Part shown: one piece after another, positions 21,918 through 33,769 of the stretch | How the letters are laid out: each line of letters begins with the position of its first letter | Numbering within the stretch: position 1 is the first letter of the stretch | Assembly (NCBI GenBank): GCA_019236695.1 | Contig: JAFAIN010000015.1 | Coordinates: 1 to 33,769, forward strand | Length of the DNA: 33,769 bases | From: Acidobacteriota bacterium | GTDB lineage: Bacteria > Acidobacteriota > Terriglobia > Terriglobales > Acidobacteriaceae | Direction: 5' to 3' | Notes under the pieces: generated by a model | The model's database searches: none | Told to the model about the DNA's origin: nothing | What the model saw: the letters and a program-made list of their open reading frames with translations, nothing else | Made by a program: the position numbers and the translations under genes

Positions 21918-22802
21918 TCAGTAGAGAATTGAGGGCAAATACGCACCCTGCGGTTCGTTGTAAAGGCCAATGGTCATCAATGTGAGAGGCTCGATGACGC
22001 GAAGGCCATTTTCGAGGCACCATCGGAATAATTCCGCATTGCGGACGGGCACGAGAATGCCCGGTCCGTCGAACCGCTCGGCTGCGGCAATCAGAGCCTG
22101 CAGGTCGTAGTTACTTTCCGCAACGGCATAGGAAAAGAAGGCCAGCCCTGAGGCGCAGGCGGTGATTCTGCCTTCCCGCTCCACCACGACCGCGCTTCCG
22201 TGGCGGATGCCGTCATGCAATTCCCCGGTGCGCTCATGCCCATGTACCGCAAACTGCACGCGGGCGCAGGCTTGAAGATCGGCAGCCGTCGCCTTCCGCA
22301 CGTTACAGCCCCTTAGCGGGCGGCGGAGCGCCGGTCCATTCATCACCACCAGAGGCTCACGAACCACAAAGCCGAGCTTGGCATACAGCGATAACGACCG
22401 GCGATGATAGGCCGCCTGAACCAGCCGAATTCCGGCGTGCCCCTGTTCGGTCGAGCGCTCCATCACCGCGTGCATCAGCGCGCGGCCGGCGCCCCGATCC
22501 TGCACGGCCGGATCGACCGTAACAGGGCCCACGCCTGCAATGGGAGAACGTTGATCCAGGCAGTTGCTGCCTATGATCCTGCCTCCTGATTCGGCGACGA
22601 CGCAGAAGAATTTAGGGTGGGAGAATATCGCTCCCATGAACCCGGCGGCTACATCAACTCCCGGAATATCGGGCGGGAAGTTATGCTGCAAGGCGATGGC
22701 ATGGAATGCTTCGAAGCAGATGCGCCCGCATTCGGCAGTATCCGCCGGAGTAGCGCACCGAATGGTAATCGGAAGAGAACCCGACTTCACGGGATCGGCC
22801 AA
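21918..22802 (-). CDS. Tandem GNAT-family acetyltransferase
   Basis: This is about 294 residues with two GNAT-like halves. The first has the acetyl-CoA loop 'VTVDPAVQDRGAGRALM' (Q-x-x-G-x-G/A) and the family's 'SLYAKLGFV' ending. The second half ('VRKATAADLQACARVQFAVHGHERTGEL') is the degenerate partner domain seen in related two-domain GNATs, ending 'GLRVIEPLTLMTIGLY'. The acceptor is unknown. I place the start at TTG 22802, with GGAGG nine bases upstream. GTG 22835 would add 11 residues but has no ribosome-binding site. Confidence 0.8.
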   Translation of the reverse strand: MADPVKSGSLPITIRCATPADTAECGRICFEAFHAIALQHNFPPDIPGVDVAAGFMGAIFSHPKFFCVVAESGGRIIGSNCLDQRSPIAGVGPVTVDPAVQDRGAGRALMHAVMERSTEQGHAGIRLVQAAYHRRSLSLYAKLGFVVREPLVVMNGPALRRPLRGCNVRKATAADLQACARVQFAVHGHERTGELHDGIRHGSAVVVEREGRITACASGLAFFSYAVAESNYDLQALIAAAERFDGPGILVPVRNAELFRWCLENGLRVIEPLTLMTIGLYNEPQGAYLPSILY

Positions 22803-22896
22803 GCGTGAATGCCTCCGGAGGGATTTGTGGGGCACTATTCTGGCACAAGTCGTGTTCCTGTACGGGAGCGAGGACGAATGCTCAGGGTGTTCCGGG

Positions 22897-23343
22897 CTAG
22901 GCTGCTTTCCGATGTGACCATCGCTGGCCGCGATGGCTGCCCAGCGGGGCGTTCAGGGCCGCCTCCACCGCTTGCAGCATTTCCGGAATCGGAACCGGTT
23001 TAGCGAGGATGGGGAACTCGTAGCCTTGCGCCCGCGCGCCCGCGAGGATATCGGCAGTGGCGGTATTGCCCGAGAAGAGCAGTATCCTGGTTTCGGGCAG
23101 TGAATCGCACACCTCAATGGCGAGGGAAACGCCATTCAGCCTGGGCATGATGACATCGCTGAAGACCAGGTCAGGATGTAGTTTCCGCGCCAGTTCCAAA
23201 GCGGCCAATCCGTCATCGGCGGTTGCGGTTCGATAGCCGTGCGCTTCGAGGATGGCCGAACAGGTTAGAGTGATAGACTTCTCATCATCTACGATCAAGA
23301 TCAGCGGCGCGTCTGCGCTTGGCGCATTGGGCATATCAACCAT
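22897..23343 (-). CDS. Single-domain response regulator (receiver only)
   Basis: This 148-residue CheY-like receiver has no output domain. The acidic pocket is Asp19/Asp20 (VDDE), the phosphoacceptor is Asp63 (FSDVIMP), the switch Ser is Ser91 (FSGNT) and the conserved Lys is Lys115 (LAKPV). All needed residues are present, so it should be phosphorylated by a histidine kinase, which is not encoded in the window. The tail (SHRGQRWSHRKAA) is basic. An in-frame ATG at 23334 is an alternative start. It diverges from the rimP-nusA operon. Confidence 0.9.
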   Translation of the reverse strand: MVDMPNAPSADAPLILIVDDEKSITLTCSAILEAHGYRTATADDGLAALELARKLHPDLVFSDVIMPRLNGVSLAIEVCDSLPETRILLFSGNTATADILAGARAQGYEFPILAKPVPIPEMLQAVEAALNAPLGSHRGQRWSHRKAA

Positions 23344-23403
23344 GCGATGCGGAGAACAAGCGGGTCCGTTGCCCGCCGTTTCGTGCCGGTACTCCGAGTC
23401 AGT

Positions 23404-23434
23404 GGCAGCAGGCAGCCTGAATCGCCGTGCTGCC
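23404..23434. promoter_or_regulatory. Inverted repeat just upstream of the rimP promoter
   Basis: GGCAGCA (23404-23410), 17 bases, then TGCTGCC (23428-23434): perfect 7+7 half-sites ending six bases before the -35 box of the rimP promoter. A second GGCAGC follows the left half directly. It is a possible regulator site for the divergent response-regulator/rimP region, or chance in GC-rich DNA. Confidence 0.3.
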
Positions 23435-23440
23435 TGGAGT

Positions 23441-23469
23441 TTGTGTTTTCGCGTGACTACTTCTATACT
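23441..23469 (+). promoter_or_regulatory. Predicted sigma70-type promoter of the rimP-nusA-infB operon
   Basis: TTGTGT (23441-23446), a 17-base spacer and TATACT (23464-23469) form a near-consensus promoter in the divergent gap. Transcription would start near 23476, giving a leader of about 110 bases before rimP. Confidence 0.6.
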
Positions 23470-23500
23470 ATGTAACGTAAGTGGTAGGCCTTAGCGGTAG

Positions 23501-23530
23501 ATGCCTGCGCTGGAGCTGGTAGGCAGGCAT
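23501..23530 (+). promoter_or_regulatory. First leader hairpin of the rimP-nusA operon
   Basis: ATGCCTGC (23501-23508) and GCAGGCAT (23523-23530) form a perfect 8-bp stem with a 14-base loop. Its loop contains CTGGT (23516-23520), complementary to ACCAG (23543-23547) at the base of the following terminator, so the two structures could interact. Confidence 0.45.
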
Positions 23531-23545
23531 TCGGCGAAGCACACC

Positions 23546-23571
23546 AGTCGGCGCGAGCCGGCTTTTATTTT
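23546..23571 (+). terminator. Intrinsic terminator in the rimP-nusA leader (attenuator candidate)
   Basis: The stem GTCGGC/GCCGGC (one G-U pair) closes a GCGA loop (GNRA type) and is extended by one A-T pair. The tail is TTTTATTTT. This is a textbook Rho-independent terminator for plus-strand transcripts and ends 13 bases before the rimP ATG. The genes on either side diverge, so no upstream plus-strand gene needs a terminator here. A short alternative pairing of TCGGC (23548-23552) with GCCGA (23573-23577) would break the stem. Confidence 0.65.
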
Positions 23572-23584
23572 GGCCGAGTTTCCA

Positions 23585-24151
23585 ATGGCCAGCGTTGAAC
23601 AAAACGTGCGCGAGATTGCCGAGCGGGTTGCGGGGGCGCTGGGAGTGGAAATCGTTGAGATTGAATTCCGCGGCACCGGTGGAAAGAGCCGGATGCTGCG
23701 AGTTTACATCGATCGGCCGCCGGACCAGCAGGATACGAGCGATTCGGTTTCGACGGTTGAACAACTCAGCGGGGTGACGCACGAAGACTGCGTGGCTTTC
23801 AGCAACGAGTTCGGAACCATCGTGGATGCGGAGAATGCCGTACCAGGAGCGGGCTACACTCTGGAGGTTTCGTCTCCCGGGCTCGATCGGAAACTGGTGA
23901 AACTCCAGGACTACAGCCGATTTACCGGTCATCTCGTAAAGGTGACAACGCGCGAACCGGTCAATGGGCAAAGGAACTTTAAAGGCAGGCTGGACGGACT
24001 GCAGGACGGGATGATCGGCCTGAGGCCGCAGGACGGGGGACGCAGCAAGAAGGGGAAGCGGCAAACCGAAGAGACTGAATCCGCCGATCGGCCGGTGGTG
24101 AGGATTGCGCTCGCCAATGTGGAGCGCGCAAACCTTGTGCCGGAATGGTGA
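23585..24151 (+). CDS. rimP: Ribosome maturation factor RimP
   Basis: RimP helps assemble the 30S subunit. This 188-residue protein has the two RimP domains: the N-terminal alpha/beta domain with 'GVEIVEIEFRGTGGKSRMLRVYIDRP', and the joining signature 'YTLEVSSPGLDRKL' (about 95-108), followed by the SH3-like domain. The SH3 part carries a charged, Lys/Glu-rich insertion (about 154-170). ATG 23585 is the first start before the conserved fold; in-frame codons upstream would run through the predicted leader hairpins. It is first in the rimP-nusA-infB operon, an order conserved across bacteria. Confidence 0.93.
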   Translation: MASVEQNVREIAERVAGALGVEIVEIEFRGTGGKSRMLRVYIDRPPDQQDTSDSVSTVEQLSGVTHEDCVAFSNEFGTIVDAENAVPGAGYTLEVSSPGLDRKLVKLQDYSRFTGHLVKVTTREPVNGQRNFKGRLDGLQDGMIGLRPQDGGRSKKGKRQTEETESADRPVVRIALANVERANLVPEW

Positions 24152-24167
24152 CGAGAGAGCTGAATTT

Positions 24168-25778
24168 ATGGCAAGTGACCTGTACAACAGCATAGACGCG
24201 CTGAGCCGCGAAAAAGGGATCGATCCCCAGATTGTAGTGAGCGCCGTTCAGGATGCGATGGTGATTGCGACGCGCAAGTCGCTGAAGACGCCTGAGGTTC
24301 TGCGGGCCGAACTCGACAAGGAAACCGGCATCATCCGGGTTTTTGCGGTCAAGAGCGTCGTTGAAAATGAGGACGAGATCGAAGACCCGCACGAGCAGAT
24401 CCCACTGGAAGAGGCGCGGGAATACGATGCGGCGGTGGAAATTGGCGGCGAGGTGAAGATTCCCCGCGCGCAGCACCAGATGCAGAACCCGGCGGGCGGC
24501 CTGGGCCGAATTGCGGCGCAACTTGCGAAGCAGGTTATTTTCCAGAAGGTGCGCGAGGCTGAGCGCGACACGGTTTACAACGAGTACATCGGCCGAGTGG
24601 GCGAGATCGTGAATGCAACCGTAAAACGCGTGGAAGGTCCCGATGTCATTTTCGATATCGGCAAGGCCGAGGCGCGCATGCCCCGCAAAGAGCAGTCGCG
24701 GCTGGAATCGTTTGCAGTGGGTGAGCGCGTGCGGGTGGTGATCAAGACCGTGGATAAGGCCACCAAGGGCCCGGGCGTGTTGGTGTCGCGCGCGGTTCCT
24801 GAGCTGGTGCAGCACCTGTTCCAGACCGAGGTGCCTGAGATCTACGACAATACCGTCGTCATTCGAGCGATTGCGCGCGAAGCCGGCGAGCGCACCAAAA
24901 TTGCCGTGATGTCGCGCGACAAGGATGTGGACCCCGTAGGCGCATGCGTGGGAATGAAGGGGATGCGAGTACAGAGCATCATTCGCGAACTGCGCGGCGA
25001 AAAGATCGACATTATCGAGTACAACGAAGACCCGGTGATGTTTGCGGAGAAGGCACTGCAGCCGGCGAAGGTAAGCCGCGTCACCATCCTTGAGGCCTCG
25101 GACAAGCACCTCGAGGTTATCGTTGACGACACGCAGCTTTCCCTGGCTATCGGCAAGAAAGGGCAGAACGTCCGGCTGGCTGCGAAGCTCCTTGGGTGGA
25201 AGATAGATATCAAGAGCGAGGAAGAGAAGCGCCAGGAAGTGGAGCAGCAGATGCAGGCTCTGGTCAGCTCCAATACTCCGCTGGACCGCGTTCCCGACCT
25301 TGATGAAAGCATCATCGACAAGCTGGTGGCGGCCGGCGTGAACAACGTGGAAGCTCTGGCGGATATGACGCCCGAGCAACTGGAAGCCATCCCTGGAATA
25401 GGCCCGAAGACGGTGGAAAAAATCTCCATCGCAGTGAATACTTATTTCAGCAGCCTGGAAGCCGGGGAGGCGCCGGGCGAGGGCGCGGCGGCCGAGCCGG
25501 CGGAAGCCGCCGTGGAAACGGAGCCCGGCGACCAGCCTTCCGCTGAAGCTGGCGGAGAAACTCCGGCCGATGATGCAGGGCCCGATTCCGCGCGGCAGTC
25601 AGGTGACACGGAAGGCCTTTCACAAATAGAAGACAGCAACGCCGAAAGCGTAAGCGAGCTTGTGGAAGAGGGGCAGGATTTTGAAGGGGCGGCTATTGCC
25701 GGCGTGGAGAATGCGCCGCCCGCTGACGTCAGCGAAGTGGAAGTGCACGAGAGGACTCCGGAGAACGAAGGGACGTAG
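24168..25778 (+). CDS. nusA: Transcription termination/antitermination protein NusA
   Basis: NusA binds RNA polymerase and nascent RNA and affects pausing, termination and antitermination. The 536 residues run: N-terminal polymerase-binding domain (1-135), S1 domain (about 140-205), KH1 with GMKG (262-265), KH2 with GKKG (329-332), a helix-hairpin-helix region (about 375-425; 'LEAIPGIGPKTVEKI'), and then a roughly 105-residue tail rich in Glu, Ala, Asp and Gly with almost no basic residues. The tail is a low-complexity acidic extension in the place of the acidic repeats of E. coli NusA. The gene follows rimP by 16 bases. Confidence 0.96.
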   Translation: MASDLYNSIDALSREKGIDPQIVVSAVQDAMVIATRKSLKTPEVLRAELDKETGIIRVFAVKSVVENEDEIEDPHEQIPLEEAREYDAAVEIGGEVKIPRAQHQMQNPAGGLGRIAAQLAKQVIFQKVREAERDTVYNEYIGRVGEIVNATVKRVEGPDVIFDIGKAEARMPRKEQSRLESFAVGERVRVVIKTVDKATKGPGVLVSRAVPELVQHLFQTEVPEIYDNTVVIRAIAREAGERTKIAVMSRDKDVDPVGACVGMKGMRVQSIIRELRGEKIDIIEYNEDPVMFAEKALQPAKVSRVTILEASDKHLEVIVDDTQLSLAIGKKGQNVRLAAKLLGWKIDIKSEEEKRQEVEQQMQALVSSNTPLDRVPDLDESIIDKLVAAGVNNVEALADMTPEQLEAIPGIGPKTVEKISIAVNTYFSSLEAGEAPGEGAAAEPAEAAVETEPGDQPSAEAGGETPADDAGPDSARQSGDTEGLSQIEDSNAESVSELVEEGQDFEGAAIAGVENAPPADVSEVEVHERTPENEGT

Positions 25779-25854
25779 ATGTGGCTGCGTAACGGTTCTC
25801 GTGAGGTTTACATGAACACCTAACCAGGCAGGATGCGGAGCAAGCAAAGGCTGA

Positions 25855-28761
25855 ATGAGGATTAACGAACTAGCGCGAGAGCTGGAGGTTCCTTCGAAGC
25901 AGGTGATCGAAGCGCTGCCGAAGATCGGCATTGCCGACAAGAAGAGCCACTCCAGCAAGGTGGATCCGGATGAAATCGAGAAAATCCGGAAACATTTCCG
26001 TGCGGCCGCCGAGGCTGAGAGCAAGCCCGCTTCAGCGCCCAGGCTGGCCGGTGAAGGCGACGAGATCAAAACGAAGTTCGATCTCTCGAACATCTCCAAG
26101 CCTGGCGATGTGCTGAAGGCCATTACGCAGAAGCAGGCAGTGCCGGCGGCGCCGCCGCGCCCCGCAACTGCTCCGCCTGCCGCCAGGCCGCCGGCAAGCG
26201 CAGCAGTTCCGAAGCCTGCCGCACCGGCCGTGAGCACAGCAGCGCCCCCCACGGCGCCACCCCCCACGGCACCGGCGAAACCTGCGCCGCGGTTCATCAC
26301 GCCAGACATTCTGGCGCCGCGCCCGCCTGCACCCATCGTCCGGCCCGAGGCCAAGCCGCCGGCGGCCGCTCCTGCGACGCCTGCAATCGAGGAAAAGGCG
26401 CCAGCGCCTGCTGCAGCCATTCCGGCGGCTCCTGCACCGAGTGCGCCGCCAGCAGTCACCCAACCCTCGGCCGAACCGGCCGTCGAAGTACAGGCGGCGG
26501 CTCAGCCCGCCGTGCCTGCGCGGCCGGCTGAACCGCCCATTCCACCGCAGCCGCCAGCGCGGCGCATGATCGTTCCTCAAACGGGACCTCGGCCTGTTTA
26601 CCAGGCTCCTGCGCAGCCTCGCAACCTCACGCCGACACCGGGCCAGCCGATTGCGCGCCGGCCTATACCGGGGCAGCCCATTGCGCAGCGGCCTCGCCCC
26701 GCAGCCGGCGCACCCGGCATGCGCCCTATGCCGCCGGGTGGCCGCCGCCCCATGCATCCCACATCACGACCGATGGCGCCAGGCGCGCGGCCAGGGTTTG
26801 GGCAACGACCCATGGGCGCACCTCCGGCGGGAGCTCCGCCGCCGGGCACGCGCCGGCCAGGAGCAAACCGTCGCCCTGGCCAGCAGTACGTTCCGCGCGG
26901 TGTGAAAGAAGGCCCGATGAAGGGCTTTGTTCCGCCGCCGCGGCTGACGCTCTCGACTGAGCCTTTACCCATCACGCGCGAGATCACCATTACGGAAGGG
27001 ATCAGCGTAAAGGACCTGGCGGAAAAACTTGGGATCCGCGCCAAGGATTTAATTGCCCGATTGCTGGCGCGCGGCGTATTCGCCACCATCAACCAAACGC
27101 TCGATCAGGAACTGGCAGGCGACATGGCGCGGCAGTTCGGCGCTGACGCCAAGGTGATCACGTTCGAAGAGCAGTTGATGCAGGATACGGGTCCGGCGCA
27201 ATCGGCTGAACAGGCGGCGGAGACCATGCAGGCCCGGCCACCGGTGGTCACCATCATGGGTCACGTAGACCATGGCAAGACCACGCTGCTCGACAGTATC
27301 CGCGAAGCCAATGTGGCAGGCGGCGAAGCGGGCGGCATCACGCAGCATATTGGCGCATACAAGGTTCGCATTGCGGATACCAACTCTCCGGCTTACGGCC
27401 GCGAGATCGCGTTCATCGATACGCCCGGCCATGAGGCATTCACGCGCATGCGGGCCCGCGGCGCCAAGGTGACGGACATTGTAGTGCTCGTAGTCGCGGC
27501 GGATGATGGCGTGATGCCTCAGACGCTGGAAGCCATGGACCATGCCAAGGCGGCCAACGTTCCGATCATCGTGGCGGTGAACAAGATCGATAAGCCCGAT
27601 GCGCTTCCCGATCGTGTAAAGAAACAGCTAGCCGACCGGGGGCTCATGCCGGAGGACTGGGGCGGCAATACTGTGTTTGTCGACGTCTCGGCCAAGCAAA
27701 AGACCAACCTCAACCTGCTGCTGGAAATGATCTGCCTGGTTGCCGACCTGCAGGAGGTGAAATCGAATCCTGACCGCCCGGCCAGCGGTACGGTGCTCGA
27801 GGCCAAACTCGACCGTGGCCGCGGCCCGGTGGCCACGGTGCTGATTCAGTCAGGCACCCTGAAAATCGGCGATGCATTTGTGGCGGGCAACATTTTCGGG
27901 CGCGTGCGCGCCATGTTCGACGATCGCGGCAAGGCCCTCGAGCAGGCAAGCCCCTCGACCCCGGTTGAAATTCTGGGGGCAGAGGGCCTGCCCGCTGCCG
28001 GCGACCAGTTCGTGGTGGCTGAGCGGGAGCGCGCTCACGAGATTTCGGAATATCGCACTATGAAGGCCCGCGAAGCGCAACTTGCCAAGACCTCGCGCGT
28101 TTCCCTGGAAGGCTTGTCGGAGCAGATCAAAGCGGCCGGCATCAAGGAACTGCCCATCATCCTGAAAGGCGATGTGCAGGGCTCAGTGGAAGTGCTGTCT
28201 GACCTGCTGACCAAGCTCTCGAACGAGAAGGTCAAGATCAAGGTGCTCCACTCCGGCGTGGGCGCAATCACGGAAACCGACGTGCTGCTGGCGTCGGCTT
28301 CAAACGCCATCATTATCGGTTTCAACGTCAGGCCTGAGCGCAAAGCGCACGATCTCGCCGAGCAGGAAAAAGTCGACATCCGGCTGCACTCCATCATTTA
28401 CGAACTGCAGGACGAGATCAAGCGCGCGATGGCGGGCCTGCTTGAACCGGTAATCCGCGAAGCCTATCATGGCCGCGCGGAAGTCCGCGAAACCTTCCGT
28501 ATTCCCAAGGTCGGCACCATTGCCGGGTGCTTCATGCAGGACGGTTTAATCAAGCGCGATGACGAAGTGCGGCTCCTGCGCGACAACGTAGTCGTGTTCA
28601 AAGGCAAGGTCGGATCGCTCCGGCGCTTCAAAGACGACGTGAATGAAGTTCGCAATGGGCAGGAATGCGGCATCGGAATTTCGGGCTACGGCGATATCAA
28701 AGTTGGCGACGTAATCGAAGGTTTCGTAACCGAGCGCATCGCCCAGGAAGTGTTCGCCTAA
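25855..28761 (+). CDS. infB: Translation initiation factor IF-2
   Basis: This 968-residue GTPase brings initiator tRNA to the 30S subunit and promotes subunit joining. An N-terminal IF2_N helix module (about 1-50) is followed by a very long Pro/Ala/Arg-rich linker (about 85-350) and a second IF2_N module (about 383-410). The G domain has G1 GHVDHGKT (469-476), G3 DTPGH (522-526) and G4 NKID (576-579). Domains II to IV follow and end '[15 protein letters not shown]'. AAAGG before ATG 25855 is a modest ribosome-binding site. The 76-base gap after nusA holds none of the small genes (ylxR, L7Ae-like) often found there in Firmicutes. Confidence 0.97.
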
Positions 28762-28840
28762 AAGAGCTTCCTCGCCTTTCGGGCGTGGCCTTTTGGCTTT
28801 CCGCTCACGGACTTCACCTGGGTTTAGCCGCGTTAACCTG

Positions 28841-29131
28841 ATGCCGATCGCGTATCTCACGCTTGAGCTCCGCATGGAAGCCGCGCAATCGTTGAAGGAC
28901 AAGCGCCAGGTGCTGCGCAGCGTAAAGGACCGCCTGCGCTCGCACTTCAATGTCTCGGTTGCCGAGCTTGATCCGGCCGACCTGTGGCAGCGCGCGACCC
29001 TCGGGGTGGTGAGCATTTCCTCGTCGCGTGACTATCTTGATGGGCTGATGCACAACGTAGAGAGGGAGGCTGTGCGCGTGGCCAACAATGCCGGCGCAGA
29101 TGTGACCGACAGCTACATGGAATTCCTTTAA
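28841..29131 (+). CDS. DUF503 / YlxP family protein
   Basis: This 96-residue protein matches the DUF503 (YlxP-like) family: 'AYLTLELRMEAAQSLKDKRQVLRSVKDRLRSHFNVSVAELD' is its signature region, followed by 'WQRATLGVVSISS'. The family is found between infB and rbfA in many bacteria. Its function is not established; a ferredoxin-like fold and a link to ribosome assembly are suggested by its position. The ATG at 28841 starts the conserved part. rbfA begins five bases after the stop. Confidence 0.88.
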   Translation: MPIAYLTLELRMEAAQSLKDKRQVLRSVKDRLRSHFNVSVAELDPADLWQRATLGVVSISSSRDYLDGLMHNVEREAVRVANNAGADVTDSYMEFL

Positions 29132-29135
29132 TGCA

Positions 29136-29495
29136 ATGGACCGGGCGCAACAACATCATCACGAGCGGCTGAGCGAAGCCATCCGCGCCGAGCTAACGAC
29201 CATCATTGAAGGTGAGCTGGGCGACCCGCGCATTGGAGCTCTCGCCGTCACTGAGGTTCACCTGAGCCCGGATGGAAAGACGATCAGCGCTTTTGTTTCG
29301 GTGAGCGGCGACGACCGCGCTGCAGAGAACAGCCTGGCAGGGCTAATGGCCGCGAAAGGCTACGTGCGACGGGAAATGGCAGCCCGGCTGGGGTTACGAA
29401 GGGCACCGGAGCTGGTATTTCAGCTCGACCGGTCCGAGCAGTACGGAGCTAGAATTGACGAACTGCTCCGCAGGATCCAGCGGCGCGCCCGCTAA
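29136..29495 (+). CDS. rbfA: Ribosome-binding factor A
   Basis: RbfA binds the 30S subunit during late 16S rRNA processing. The 119 residues have the KH-like fold: an N-terminal helix with 'ERLSEAIRAELTTIIEGELGDPRIG', the strand pair 'LAVTEVHLSPDGKTISAFVSV', and the end helix with 'LGLRRAPELVFQLDRSEQYGARIDELL', which carries the family's R.PEL.F..D pattern. The length is typical. It is nearly joined to the DUF503 gene (4-base gap). Confidence 0.95.
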   Translation: MDRAQQHHHERLSEAIRAELTTIIEGELGDPRIGALAVTEVHLSPDGKTISAFVSVSGDDRAAENSLAGLMAAKGYVRREMAARLGLRRAPELVFQLDRSEQYGARIDELLRRIQRRAR

Positions 29496-29555
29496 CCGGG
29501 GCCGCGGCTTGCGAGGGCGGAATCTTAGCCGACGCCCCGTCCGCTGCTGTGCAGA

Positions 29556-30539
29556 ATGCTTACCGACGTTCTACGTGAGATCAAAGGTCGACGACGGTTC
29601 GTCATCAGTTCGCATGCGCGCCCCGATGGAGATGCCGTTGGATCTGCGCTCGCGCTCGCGGACATCCTGCGCCGCCTGGACAAGATGGTGGATGTGGTCC
29701 TGCATGACCCGGTGCCGGTGATTTACCAGCCGCTGCCGTTTGCCGAAAGCGTAATCCACTCCCGCGAAGTGCCGGGCTCATACGATGCCGCCATCCTCCT
29801 GGAATGCGATTCGGTTCAGCGCACGCGGCTGGAGGGGCTGGAGCGCAACTTCCTCATCAATATCGATCATCACGTCACCGGGCGACCCTACGCCCACGTA
29901 AACTGGATTGATTCGAGCGCCTGTTCCACTGCAGAACTGGTGTGGCGGCTGGCGCGCGCGGCAAACGTCGAGATCACTCCGGATGTTGCGACGTGCCTGT
30001 ACGCGGCCGTGCTTGCCGACACGGGCTCGTTCTGCTATTCCGGCACTACTGCGGAAACGCTGGGCCTGGCGCAGGAACTGGTGCGGTGCGGCGCCCACCC
30101 GGCGCGCATAGCGCAGCAGGTGTATTTCACGAATCCAACCTCGAAGATGCGCCTGCTCGGTGCCGCACTTGGCAATCTGCACCGGGAGCATGACCTGGCG
30201 TGGATGTTCTGCACCCGCAGCGACATCGCCAGATGCGGCGCACTCGATGAAGATGCTGAAGGCCTGGTGAATTACGGGCTGGCGATTGCCGGAGTAGAGA
30301 TTGCCGTATTCCTGCGCGAACTCCCCGACCAGCGGTTCCGTGTAAGCCTGCGCAGCAAAGGGGCCGTAGATGTCGCCACCGTGGCGGAAAACTTTGGAGG
30401 GGGCGGCCACCACTGTGCGGGCGGTTTCTCCATCGATGGCCCGCTGGCGGTCGCACTCGAGCGGGTTCTTTCCGCGCTGCGCATGACCGCCTCAGCGCCG
30501 CCGGCAGACGCCACACCCGAACTTCGACCCACGAACTGA
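29556..30539 (+). CDS. nrnA: DHH-family phosphoesterase, NrnA-like oligoribonuclease/pAp phosphatase
   Basis: This family degrades short RNA pieces and 3'-phosphoadenosine 5'-phosphate. The 327 residues carry all DHH motifs: His20, Asp24 and Asp26 (SHARPDGDAVGS), Asp85 (here in ECDS), the DHH triad 104-106, Asp155 (LADTGSF), and the C-terminal DHHA1 motif GGGGHHCAGG (281-290). The gene sits after rbfA in many bacteria. truB, which often follows, is absent. The stop lies 12 bases from the convergent RDD gene. The exact substrate choice within the family is not visible. Confidence 0.9.
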   Translation: MLTDVLREIKGRRRFVISSHARPDGDAVGSALALADILRRLDKMVDVVLHDPVPVIYQPLPFAESVIHSREVPGSYDAAILLECDSVQRTRLEGLERNFLINIDHHVTGRPYAHVNWIDSSACSTAELVWRLARAANVEITPDVATCLYAAVLADTGSFCYSGTTAETLGLAQELVRCGAHPARIAQQVYFTNPTSKMRLLGAALGNLHREHDLAWMFCTRSDIARCGALDEDAEGLVNYGLAIAGVEIAVFLRELPDQRFRVSLRSKGAVDVATVAENFGGGGHHCAGGFSIDGPLAVALERVLSALRMTASAPPADATPELRPTN

Positions 30540-30551
30540 TAAAAGTGCCCG

Positions 30552-31337
30552 TCACCTGCCGCGGTCGCGCAGGGTGCGGGCCATCCGCTCGAGGAAGGCC
30601 TCAGGACCTTCGCCGGGTTCAGGACTGATGCCGGTTTTCTCGCGCAGATGCGCCAGTATCTGATCAGCGGCCTTCATGCGTACAAATCCCTGGAGCTCTT
30701 CCCTGCGGTGCAGGAAGGTCTCCACCAATTCCAGGTCGCGATTGTCGAGGCGCGCGAGTTCCGAGGACAGCAGGGGTACGGCACTCCGACCGCGTTCGGC
30801 GATCCAGGATACCGAAACCGGAGCCTGCGCGCGCTCGTGCACTACAACGGTTCCGGCCACGAGATCACCCAGGCGCTGGTTCTTCCGGGTGAGCGCCATG
30901 CAGACCAGCCCAACGCCATACAACGCGGGCAGCGAATCCACGGCACGCAGAATGTTGCGGCCAATCGCTTCGACCGCGTTGATGGGGCGGCCATTATCTT
31001 TTATGACGCGAATGCCGAGAGCCCATTTTCCTGGCGTTTGGCCCTTGCGCCAGGCTTCAAATGCGGCAAAATAACCCCAGTAGATGGTGAACAGCACCAG
31101 CACCACAAGCGCCATTGCCCAGTTCGTGGAGGCCGATAAAATAGCCGCCGCGCCTTGCCCGGCTCTGGTCCTGGTGAGCAGCAGAAACGCGCCCAGCAGA
31201 ATGAGGAAATAGAGCGCCGCTTGAATCAGGCTGTCGAGCGCCATGGCAAGAAGCCGGGAACCGATACCGGCGGGCACGAACTCCAGGGCAATCTGCTCGG
31301 GAGTATCAATCGCCAGGTTGTCGGAAGAGAGACTCAT
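30552..31337 (-). CDS. RDD-family membrane protein
   Basis: This 261-residue protein has the RDD domain at residues 20-170. It shows three hydrophobic helices (about 32-55, 72-92 and 135-150), the conserved Arg28/Asp35 of helix 1, 'GQTPGKWALGIRVI' (99-112) and 'RNILRAVDSL...QRLGDLVAGTVVV'. A C-terminal soluble tail of about 85 residues ('LVETFLHRREELQGFVRMKAADQILAHLREKTG') is a helical extension beyond the RDD core. Function is unknown; transport or envelope roles are guessed for the family. It is head-to-head with the SpoIIM-like gene, whose start codon shares one base with its own. Confidence 0.87.
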   Translation of the reverse strand: MSLSSDNLAIDTPEQIALEFVPAGIGSRLLAMALDSLIQAALYFLILLGAFLLLTRTRAGQGAAAILSASTNWAMALVVLVLFTIYWGYFAAFEAWRKGQTPGKWALGIRVIKDNGRPINAVEAIGRNILRAVDSLPALYGVGLVCMALTRKNQRLGDLVAGTVVVHERAQAPVSVSWIAERGRSAVPLLSSELARLDNRDLELVETFLHRREELQGFVRMKAADQILAHLREKTGISPEPGEGPEAFLERMARTLRDRGR

Positions 31338-32329
31338 TGATCACCACAAAGTGGCTGCAGACACGAAGCCTTTACTGGAAGCGGCTGGAGCAGATGCTCG
31401 AACGGGCCGCCGGCAACGGCATTAAACGCCTTACCCGCGCCGAATTGCGTGAGCTAGGCGCATTGTATCGCCAAACTGCCGCCGATTTGTCGGCCTTGCG
31501 GGTTGACGGCGGGAGCCAGCAGTATGCCGCTTCGCTCAACAGCCTGCTGGCACGCGCTCATAATGTCCTGTACTCCAGCACCCGCCCGCGGGCCACGGCC
31601 GTCATCGAGTTCTACGCCTCAACTTACCCGAAAATATTTCGCCGGAACTTTGGCTTTTTCGCGGCCGCATTCCTGCTGTTTGCCGTTGCCGCCATTGCCT
31701 TCGCTCTCGTGACTTCGTTCCATCCTGAGTTCCAGAACTATGTTCTAGGCCCGGAGATGGTCGATACAATCCAGCGCCGGGAAATGTGGACGCATTCCAT
31801 AGTTGCTGTGAAACCTCTGGCCTCGAGCGGCATCATGACCAACAACCTGTCCGTTTCGTTCATGGCATTTGCCGCCGGAATTACGGCGGGCGTGGGCACC
31901 GTTTACATGATGTTGACCAACGGCATGCTGTTTGGCGTGATTTCGGCGGCGTGCGTAACGGCAGGCATGGGGAGGCAACTCTTCAGCTTCGTAGCTCCTC
32001 ACGGGGTGCTGGAACTGCCGGCCATCTTCATCGCCGCCGGAGCGGGCTTTCGAATTGCGGCGGCACTGTTGTTTCCTCACCTGATGCGCCGCAAGACGGC
32101 GCTTCGGTACGCGGGCCAGGATGCCATTCGCATGATGCTTGGCTGCATTCCACTGTTGATTCTTGCCGGGATTGTTGAAGGGTTTGTCTCCCCCAGTGGC
32201 TTGCCCGAGGCAGCGAAATACGCCGCCGGCGCAACCCTGCTCGCTGGCCTGGTGATGTGGCTTGGATTGGGTTGGAAGGCGGATAAGGGCGAATCAGAAG
32301 CCAGCAATGGAATTCAAATCCTGCCCTGA
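31337..32329 (+). CDS. SpoIIM-like (COG1300) membrane protein
   Basis: This 330-residue protein has a soluble N-terminal part (1-100, with 'LTRAELRELGALYRQTAADLS') and about five to six helices, containing 'NNLSVSFMAFAAGITAGVGTVYMMLTNG' split over 168-195 and 'HGVLELPAIFIAAGAGFRIA' (about 225-245). These are the core motifs of the COG1300/SpoIIM family. In non-sporulating bacteria such genes sit with RDD, DUF58 and MoxR genes, and their role is unknown. The TTG start at 31337 is chosen because the conserved N-terminal segment begins at once; GAGAG lies five bases upstream. Its 3' end overlaps the DUF58 gene by 16 bases. Confidence 0.83.
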   Translation: MITTKWLQTRSLYWKRLEQMLERAAGNGIKRLTRAELRELGALYRQTAADLSALRVDGGSQQYAASLNSLLARAHNVLYSSTRPRATAVIEFYASTYPKIFRRNFGFFAAAFLLFAVAAIAFALVTSFHPEFQNYVLGPEMVDTIQRREMWTHSIVAVKPLASSGIMTNNLSVSFMAFAAGITAGVGTVYMMLTNGMLFGVISAACVTAGMGRQLFSFVAPHGVLELPAIFIAAGAGFRIAAALLFPHLMRRKTALRYAGQDAIRMMLGCIPLLILAGIVEGFVSPSGLPEAAKYAAGATLLAGLVMWLGLGWKADKGESEASNGIQILP

Positions 32330-33738
32330 TCCTTCAAATTCAAATATTCATTCACTACGCTGGCCGAAAGGGTTTTCCAGTCCGCTTCCAGGGCCACCGC
32401 GCCGTAATCGCGCAGGGCCGCAAGCAGCTTCTCGCGCCGGTTCACCAGTTCCTGCGCCGCAGCAATTCGGAACATTGCTTCTTCATTCGCCGGCTCTTCG
32501 GCCGCCAGCGCTCGGAGGTCGGGCTGGCTGATGGCCACCAGCAGCAACAAATGTGTCCTGGTGAGCCTGGTTGCGGCCTGCAGCACCTCAGGAGTCATCG
32601 ACGTCTCTGGAAAATCCGTCAGCCAGACGACCAGCGCGCGGCGGCGCTGGCGTGTCATCAAAGCATTGCTCGCCCGAAAATGGTCCGCCTCCGGAGCCTC
32701 TTCCTTTCCCGCGGCAAGCTGCCCGATGATTTGGCGTAAATGCGCGTTGCCGCGGCCCAAAGGAGTCACACTGCGAATTTCGCGGCCGTAAGTCATGACT
32801 CCGACGCGGTCGCCTGAGAAAACGGCCACCTGCGCCACGCTGAGTGCGGCATTTACGGCTGAATCGAGCTTGCTGATATCTCCAACGCGAGTGCGCATCA
32901 GCCGGCCGCAGTCGATTACGATCCACACCGGCTGGCTGCGTTCCATTCGATACACCTTCGTAATCGCCCGGGCGCGCCGCGCGGTAGCCGTCCAGCAGAT
33001 ATCGCGCAGGTCATCGCCGTCCTGATATTCACGAAGGCTTTCAAATTCCCGGCCTTCACCGCGAATGCGGAGATACCTTTTCTCAATTTCGGTCTGGCGG
33101 CTGCGCATCAGGTACATCGAGTGCTGTTCCGCCTCGTTCAGGTTCGGGTAGACCCGCACCTGCTGCCGCAAGTCAGCGCGCGCCCAGCGCTCCGCAATCC
33201 TGAGCCCGCTTTGGTACCGAAGGAACGCAAAACCACAGAACGCGTCGCCGCGGGAAGACGGGAGCACAAAGTACTCTGCCGTGCTCTCGCCGGGCGGCGC
33301 CACGATGGCCAATTCAGCAGGTGTTGAACGCAACGAAACGGGCACATCGTCCACAATCTTGAGCGATAAAGCCGAGCGCGAGGTGTTCTCGACTGCGAAT
33401 AGCACCCGGCCTTCAATCCTCAAAGCGAGTGGCGCATGCCAGCGGCGGGCAAGCAACAACTGCTGCGGAGTGGGGAGAGAGGCCAGATCGGCAATCCACG
33501 CCAGCAGCAACAGAGCGTCCCACGCGAGCATGCCGTAAACAAATCGCCGGTCGCGAAACGCCGGCACAATCCACACCAGCCCAAGGAGCAACAGGAAGAG
33601 GAAGCGTGGACCAAAGCCGCCGCCGAAGCGCTTCCGGCTTTCTGCGGGAGCGGCGATATCCGGGGGAACCAGAGCGGCGCCGGCCGATGGCTTGCTCACT
33701 TGCCGAGTCGCACCAATAGCGGATGTCGCCCTGGCCAT
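32314..33738 (-). CDS. DUF58 protein (MoxR-associated, VWA-like)
   Basis: This 474-residue protein starts with two membrane helices (about 46-60 and 68-86). A beta-rich segment follows, and then the DUF58 signature 'FESLREYQDGDDLRDICWTATARR' split over about 229-252. Beyond it is a VWA-like domain with 'VIDCGRLMR', 'LDSAVNAALSVAQVAVFSGDRVGVM' (parts) and 'VVWLTDFPE'. The strict DxSxS metal motif is altered to DCGRLM. Such proteins are thought to work with MoxR ATPases in envelope assembly, inferred from gene neighbourhoods. A MoxR gene could lie beyond the right edge. GAGG ten bases upstream supports ATG 33738. Confidence 0.88.
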   Translation of the reverse strand: MARATSAIGATRQVSKPSAGAALVPPDIAAPAESRKRFGGGFGPRFLFLLLLGLVWIVPAFRDRRFVYGMLAWDALLLLAWIADLASLPTPQQLLLARRWHAPLALRIEGRVLFAVENTSRSALSLKIVDDVPVSLRSTPAELAIVAPPGESTAEYFVLPSSRGDAFCGFAFLRYQSGLRIAERWARADLRQQVRVYPNLNEAEQHSMYLMRSRQTEIEKRYLRIRGEGREFESLREYQDGDDLRDICWTATARRARAITKVYRMERSQPVWIVIDCGRLMRTRVGDISKLDSAVNAALSVAQVAVFSGDRVGVMTYGREIRSVTPLGRGNAHLRQIIGQLAAGKEEAPEADHFRASNALMTRQRRRALVVWLTDFPETSMTPEVLQAATRLTRTHLLLLVAISQPDLRALAAEEPANEEAMFRIAAAQELVNRREKLLAALRDYGAVALEADWKTLSASVVNEYLNLKDQGRI

Positions 33739-33769
33739 TATTTCGGAACCTCAACGGAACCCACGATAT

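Follow-up and report, generated by a model that had tools for sequence, protein, structure and literature searches.

What does a transcriptional stop signal accomplish when it lies after the promoter but ahead of rimP, the first gene of the rimP-nusA-infB operon? The DNA analysed, referred to below as the window, was a 33,769-nucleotide stretch, one contig of the draft genome (G000) of a soil bacterium of the Acidobacteriaceae. As originally predicted, rimP is preceded by a TTGTGT-17-TATACT promoter, then by a hairpin of 8 bp and by a terminator whose U-rich tail ends 13 bases before the rimP ATG (23585); the features are listed in Table 1. The terminator stem, described earlier as 6 bp of GC, was corrected to 7 bp consisting of five G-C pairs, one A-U and one U-G. 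The terminator sits in the predicted 5' UTR of rimP-nusA-infB, the transcription start being itself a prediction. Farther 3' of infB, DUF503 and then RbfA (rbfA) were identified using Pfam. An open reading frame running in frame from 23501 was considered as an extension of rimP and rejected. In 43 of 107 relatives, a stop codon in the rimP frame separates the terminator from the rimP match; the leader was therefore read as non-coding.

Table 1. Coordinates of the rimP leader and of the neighboring genes in the window
Feature	Position	Strand	Remarks
-35 hexamer TTGTGT, predicted rimP promoter	23441..23446	+	read directly; TTGNNN-17-TATNNT conserved in window's family
-10 hexamer TATACT	23464..23469	+	17-nt spacer after -35; +1 predicted near 23476 (inferred)
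Hairpin 1, AUGCCUGC (23501-23508) / GCAGGCAU (23523-23530)	23501..23530	+	8 bp, 14-nt loop
GGCGAAGCACACC, immediately 5' of terminator stem	23533..23545	+	near-invariant alignment columns, kept in most of window's family
Terminator stem-loop AGUCGGC(GCGA)GCCGGCU	23546..23563	+	variant of rimP-leader GUGGGC...GCCCAC
Terminator stem arms and loop GCGA	arms 23546-23552/23557-23563; loop 23553-23556	+	read directly
U-rich tail UUUAUUUU	23564..23571	+	predicted 3' end of terminated RNA
rimP	23585..24151	+	Pfam RimP_N 3.7e-14, DUF150_C 9.3e-14
nusA, proposed source of feedback factor	24168..25778	+	Pfam NusA_N 2.2e-32, KH_5 8.6e-30
infB (IF-2)	25855..28761	+	Pfam IF-2 1.2e-42
Response regulator gene, divergent, upstream of rimP	22897-23343	-	read directly

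A published attenuator found in numerous bacteria, the rimP-leader, has a stem of the form GGGc...gCCC (Naville & Gautheret 2010, Genome Biol 11:R97, PMC2965389). NusA was named there as the likely factor, and the letter-by-letter conservation of the stem was explained only by proposing a protein that reads it. The earlier view that the terminator of the window acts on the operon's own transcript agrees with that description and with the divergent orientation of the upstream gene.

The terminator was compared with chance expectation. When 23344-23584 was dinucleotide-shuffled 5000 times, 3 of the shuffles contained an equal hairpin and tail, and the rimP terminator was the sole such site on both strands of the 33.8-kb window. 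The isolated hairpin had a predicted energy of −12.0 kcal/mol (z −2.6); the fold of the whole leader was not unusual (z −0.72). Terminator-like sites were not enriched in a generic scan of 22000-33769 (9 observed, 11.8 expected), nor did that scan list the TTGTGT-17-TATACT promoter; the case therefore rests on the conservation evidence.

RimP searches in 120 relatives yielded 109 rimP loci of the class with upstream DNA; G001 was the one relative from the window's genus among the genomes searched. Conservation of the stem in relatives, which had been named as a check of the original prediction, holds at 108 of these 109 loci (107 matching the pattern, plus G032 with a wobble). The sole rimP locus lacking a recognizable rimP-leader motif was that of G047 (L058). 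All six core stem pairs are standard in 108/108 motif-bearing loci, the commonest form being GTGGGC(GNRA)GCCCAC-T5+. The stem reads exactly GUGGGC/GCCCAC in 102 of the 108, and pairing is kept in each of the six that deviate: pair 4 is C-G and pair 5 is U-G in G000 and G001, pair 6 is G-U in G011, G026 and G030, and pair 5 is U-G in G032. The core-pair changes seen were thus G-C to C-G (the window's genus), U-A to U-G and G-C to G-U. The loop has 4 nt at 94 of the 108 loci and is GNRA in most; tail column 8 is T in all 108 and column 9 in 105. The RNAalifold consensus of 41 leaders from the window's family contained the terminator stem alone, and the double change at pair 4 was detected.

Several other features of rimP leaders were recorded. 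Genome G019 has two rimP loci (L022 and L120), each with its own rimP-leader terminator. Most leaders in the window's family carry a near-invariant GGCGAA(G/A)CACACC directly 5' of the stem (23533-23545 in the window), and many have CTGTTGTG farther upstream, able to pair with CACACCAG around a mismatch. A recurring AAGTTATTG/AAGTTACTG, unlike a Shine-Dalgarno sequence, precedes the rimP start in L005, L008, L021, L024 and others. In the Clostridia rimP leaders L039 (~2439-2463) and L040 (~2435-2461), the place of the GGGC/GCCC terminator is taken by a hairpin, GAGAGUGG...CCACUCUC, that lacks a U-tract.

Specificity to rimP was examined by searching for the exact pattern GTGGGC-N3-8-GCCCAC-TTTT, with the backward pattern as the control. 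Of 151 class genomes, 134 contained the pattern, with few exceptions as a single copy; the control gave 3 matches. All 60 exact-pattern sites that were fetched (30 from the class and 30 from a phylum sample) lay directly 5' of rimP. At the 30 loci of the phylum sample, 17 of them from outside the class, nusA follows rimP. Outside the class, fewer than half of the sampled genomes had the exact pattern; the letter-for-letter form is therefore strongest within the class. Within a genome the signature is specific to rimP. Genome G103 has a second GTGGGC...GCCCACTTTT copy (C235:27821-27840), apart from the rimP copy and with a non-GNRA loop.

The window's genome lacks the canonical GTGGGC pattern and has a flipped pattern once, at rimP. 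The core is CGGC...GCCG in G000 and G001, and GGGC...GCCC at the orthologous position in the other 106 motif-bearing class loci. Since the window departs from the letter-for-letter GGGc...gCCC core at the orthologous position, its terminator was filed by orthology as a variant of the rimP-leader. Among the 109 rimP loci, on which the genus restriction rests, the invariant G-C pair is flipped to C-G, next to a U-G wobble and with pairing kept, solely in the window's genus; a search of the phylum for the flipped pattern, by sequence alone, also gave scattered matches.

The stem is preceded by a conserved sigma70-like −35/−10 pair with ~17-nt spacing (mean score 9.7 vs 2.9 for control regions). 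The gap from the −10 to the stem is 77 nt in the window, mostly 45–50 nt in its family and 11–33 nt in most other families. With transcription assumed to start ~7 nt after the −10, the starts being predictions, terminated RNAs of 30–108 nt were predicted, with lengths of ≤38 nt in 12 genomes or more. Some families have a predicted RNA of ~30–38 nt, too short for a sensor, with only a few nt before the stem. Neither the 41-leader consensus fold nor the leader fold predictions revealed a conserved antiterminator or a larger sensor.

At the level of sequence, the presence and position of the terminator, its conservation and rimP specificity, the conserved promoter and the pair-preserving changes are established. 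It is likely that this leader is an acidobacterial rimP-leader, that is, a sensor-less attenuator whose NusA-dependent efficiency provides autoregulation, and the stop signal probably limits the operon's own expression. Polymerase would start near 23476 and transcribe a leader of ~96 nt. Some complexes would terminate in the U-rich tail, and the remainder would go on to transcribe rimP-nusA-infB. The hairpin itself would be the control point, with no riboswitch-like sensor. How many complexes terminate would depend on an elongation factor, for which NusA is the likeliest candidate, such that high NusA would lower expression of its own operon. We infer termination in vivo at this leader from its sequence; the NusA stimulation and feedback known from the literature would, by analogy, also apply here.

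The main rival is an attenuator that is independent of any factor: a constant share of transcripts would be cut short, and neither NusA nor any other factor would exert feedback. A stable hairpin followed by a U-tract requires no factor, and no sensor or conserved antiterminator is visible; nevertheless, near-invariant stem letters in a single-copy, rimP-specific element exceed the needs of a plain terminator, and autoregulation has been published for both E. coli and B. subtilis. This reading was considered unlikely. The original prediction had also proposed that pairing of the hairpin-1 loop, or of the GCCGA after the tail, with the terminator arms makes termination conditional through mutually exclusive structures. 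The loop sequence CUGGU can indeed pair with ACCAG at the foot of the stem, and the G001 leader prefers an alternative fold (terminator P=0.235, the only case below 0.5). Against this, the terminator was predicted at P=0.999 in the window's leader and above 0.9 in 92 of 95 leaders, and some families are predicted to have just a few nt of RNA 5' of the stem. The window's family does not conserve hairpin 1 or its loop; the 41-leader consensus fold lacks this hairpin, and G001 has a different sequence at that place. As a general mechanism, alternative pairing was therefore rejected, and as an explanation of the locus it was judged very improbable; a genus-specific effect of this kind may exist in the window's genus.

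Three further explanations received still less weight. Because GTGGGC-N4-GCCCAC is a symmetric dyad close to, and just 3' of, the promoter, the repeat could be a DNA operator for a repressor. The deviations from it, however, keep an RNA wobble while breaking the DNA symmetry (T-G and G-T, 3 genomes each), the arms GTCGGC and GCCGGC of the window's genus are asymmetric as DNA, and the T-tract is conserved, with a GNRA loop in most class members; an operator is thus highly improbable. At the bottom of the ranking, with hardly any probability assigned to either, stand insulation and rRNA mimicry. Terminators often separate operons, and this one might insulate rimP from upstream read-through, but in the window the gene ahead of rimP is divergent, and the hairpin is preceded by the conserved promoter. 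The mimicry idea, in which RimP or a different protein of ribosome assembly would recognize the hairpin in place of rRNA and so exert feedback, is suggested by the resemblance of GUGGGC(GNRA)GCCCAC to 16S helix 15 in some genomes (UGGGCGAAAGCC) and by the action of RimP on the 30S subunit (PMC2965389). Where the 16S site could be read (35 genomes), helix 15 has the form GGGG(GAAA)CCC in most and varies in the rest, whereas the leader stays GGGC/GCCC. Mimicry of helix 15 was rejected, as no covariation between leader and helix 15 was seen in these 35 genomes; the site was not found in the window's own genus.

In the NusA proteins of the window's genus and its relatives, the KH region showed no clear difference to accompany the compensatory stem change. 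Three residues conserved in relatives are private to both genomes of the genus (T102Q, R194T and E384D), one of them in the S1 domain. Co-evolution of NusA with the flipped stem was found unconvincing and is not claimed, there being only these three residues, an essentially unchanged KH region and no fair background.

The observation stands and for the most part had an explanation before; its new elements are the flipped stem pair and the detail from Acidobacteriota. A more specific proposal is offered tentatively, as possible rather than likely: in Acidobacteriota the rimP-leader would be a minimal attenuator that lacks a sensor and consists of a single-copy, near-invariant hairpin lying as little as a few nt from the transcript 5' end; a sequence-specific factor would recognize the letters of its stem while the elongation complex is still very young. 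In that case the window's genus would be a natural compensatory mutant in which one G-C flip is tolerated if pairing is kept. The value of the locus lies in this natural compensatory variant and in the compact leaders, which together can test why the stem is so constrained. A phylum-wide set, one genus with a flipped pair, and families in which the terminator follows the promoter too closely to accommodate a sensor make it directly testable whether the flipped stem still responds to NusA. The flip, with pairing kept, is also an experiment of nature on which letters of the stem are important.

The locus was lastly compared with known systems. Rfam scans of the window and its relatives returned nothing relevant, a weak leuA-Halobacteria match being dismissed as a chance hairpin match. 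Rfam RF01770 'rimP' shares the name and gene context and differs in being a 102-position model; its covariance model had no match in the window's genome at E≤10. NusA autoregulation through leader termination is described for B. subtilis in a 2025 review (PMC12288461), which cites Mondal 2016 for it. That attenuation likewise involves a leader terminator of the NusA operon, with NusA dependence demonstrated there, according to the review, and inferred here. The published rimP-leader is alike in being a terminator in the rimP-nusA-infB 5' UTR with a G-rich 5' arm, a C-rich 3' arm and a U-tract, and with no visible antiterminator; it lies 4–130 nt from the gene, a range that includes the spacing in the window. 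The window differs from it in the core (CGGC...GCCG in place of GGGC...GCCC, one pair flipped), in the extra hairpin upstream and in the GNRA loop, which is typical of the class. In E. coli K-12, the leader of metY-rimP-nusA-infB comes after metY and a further terminator, and there are several promoters (PMC6511841); like the window, it carries a terminator, GGGCuuuaGGCCC-U7, just before rimP, with the same core as the published rimP-leader.
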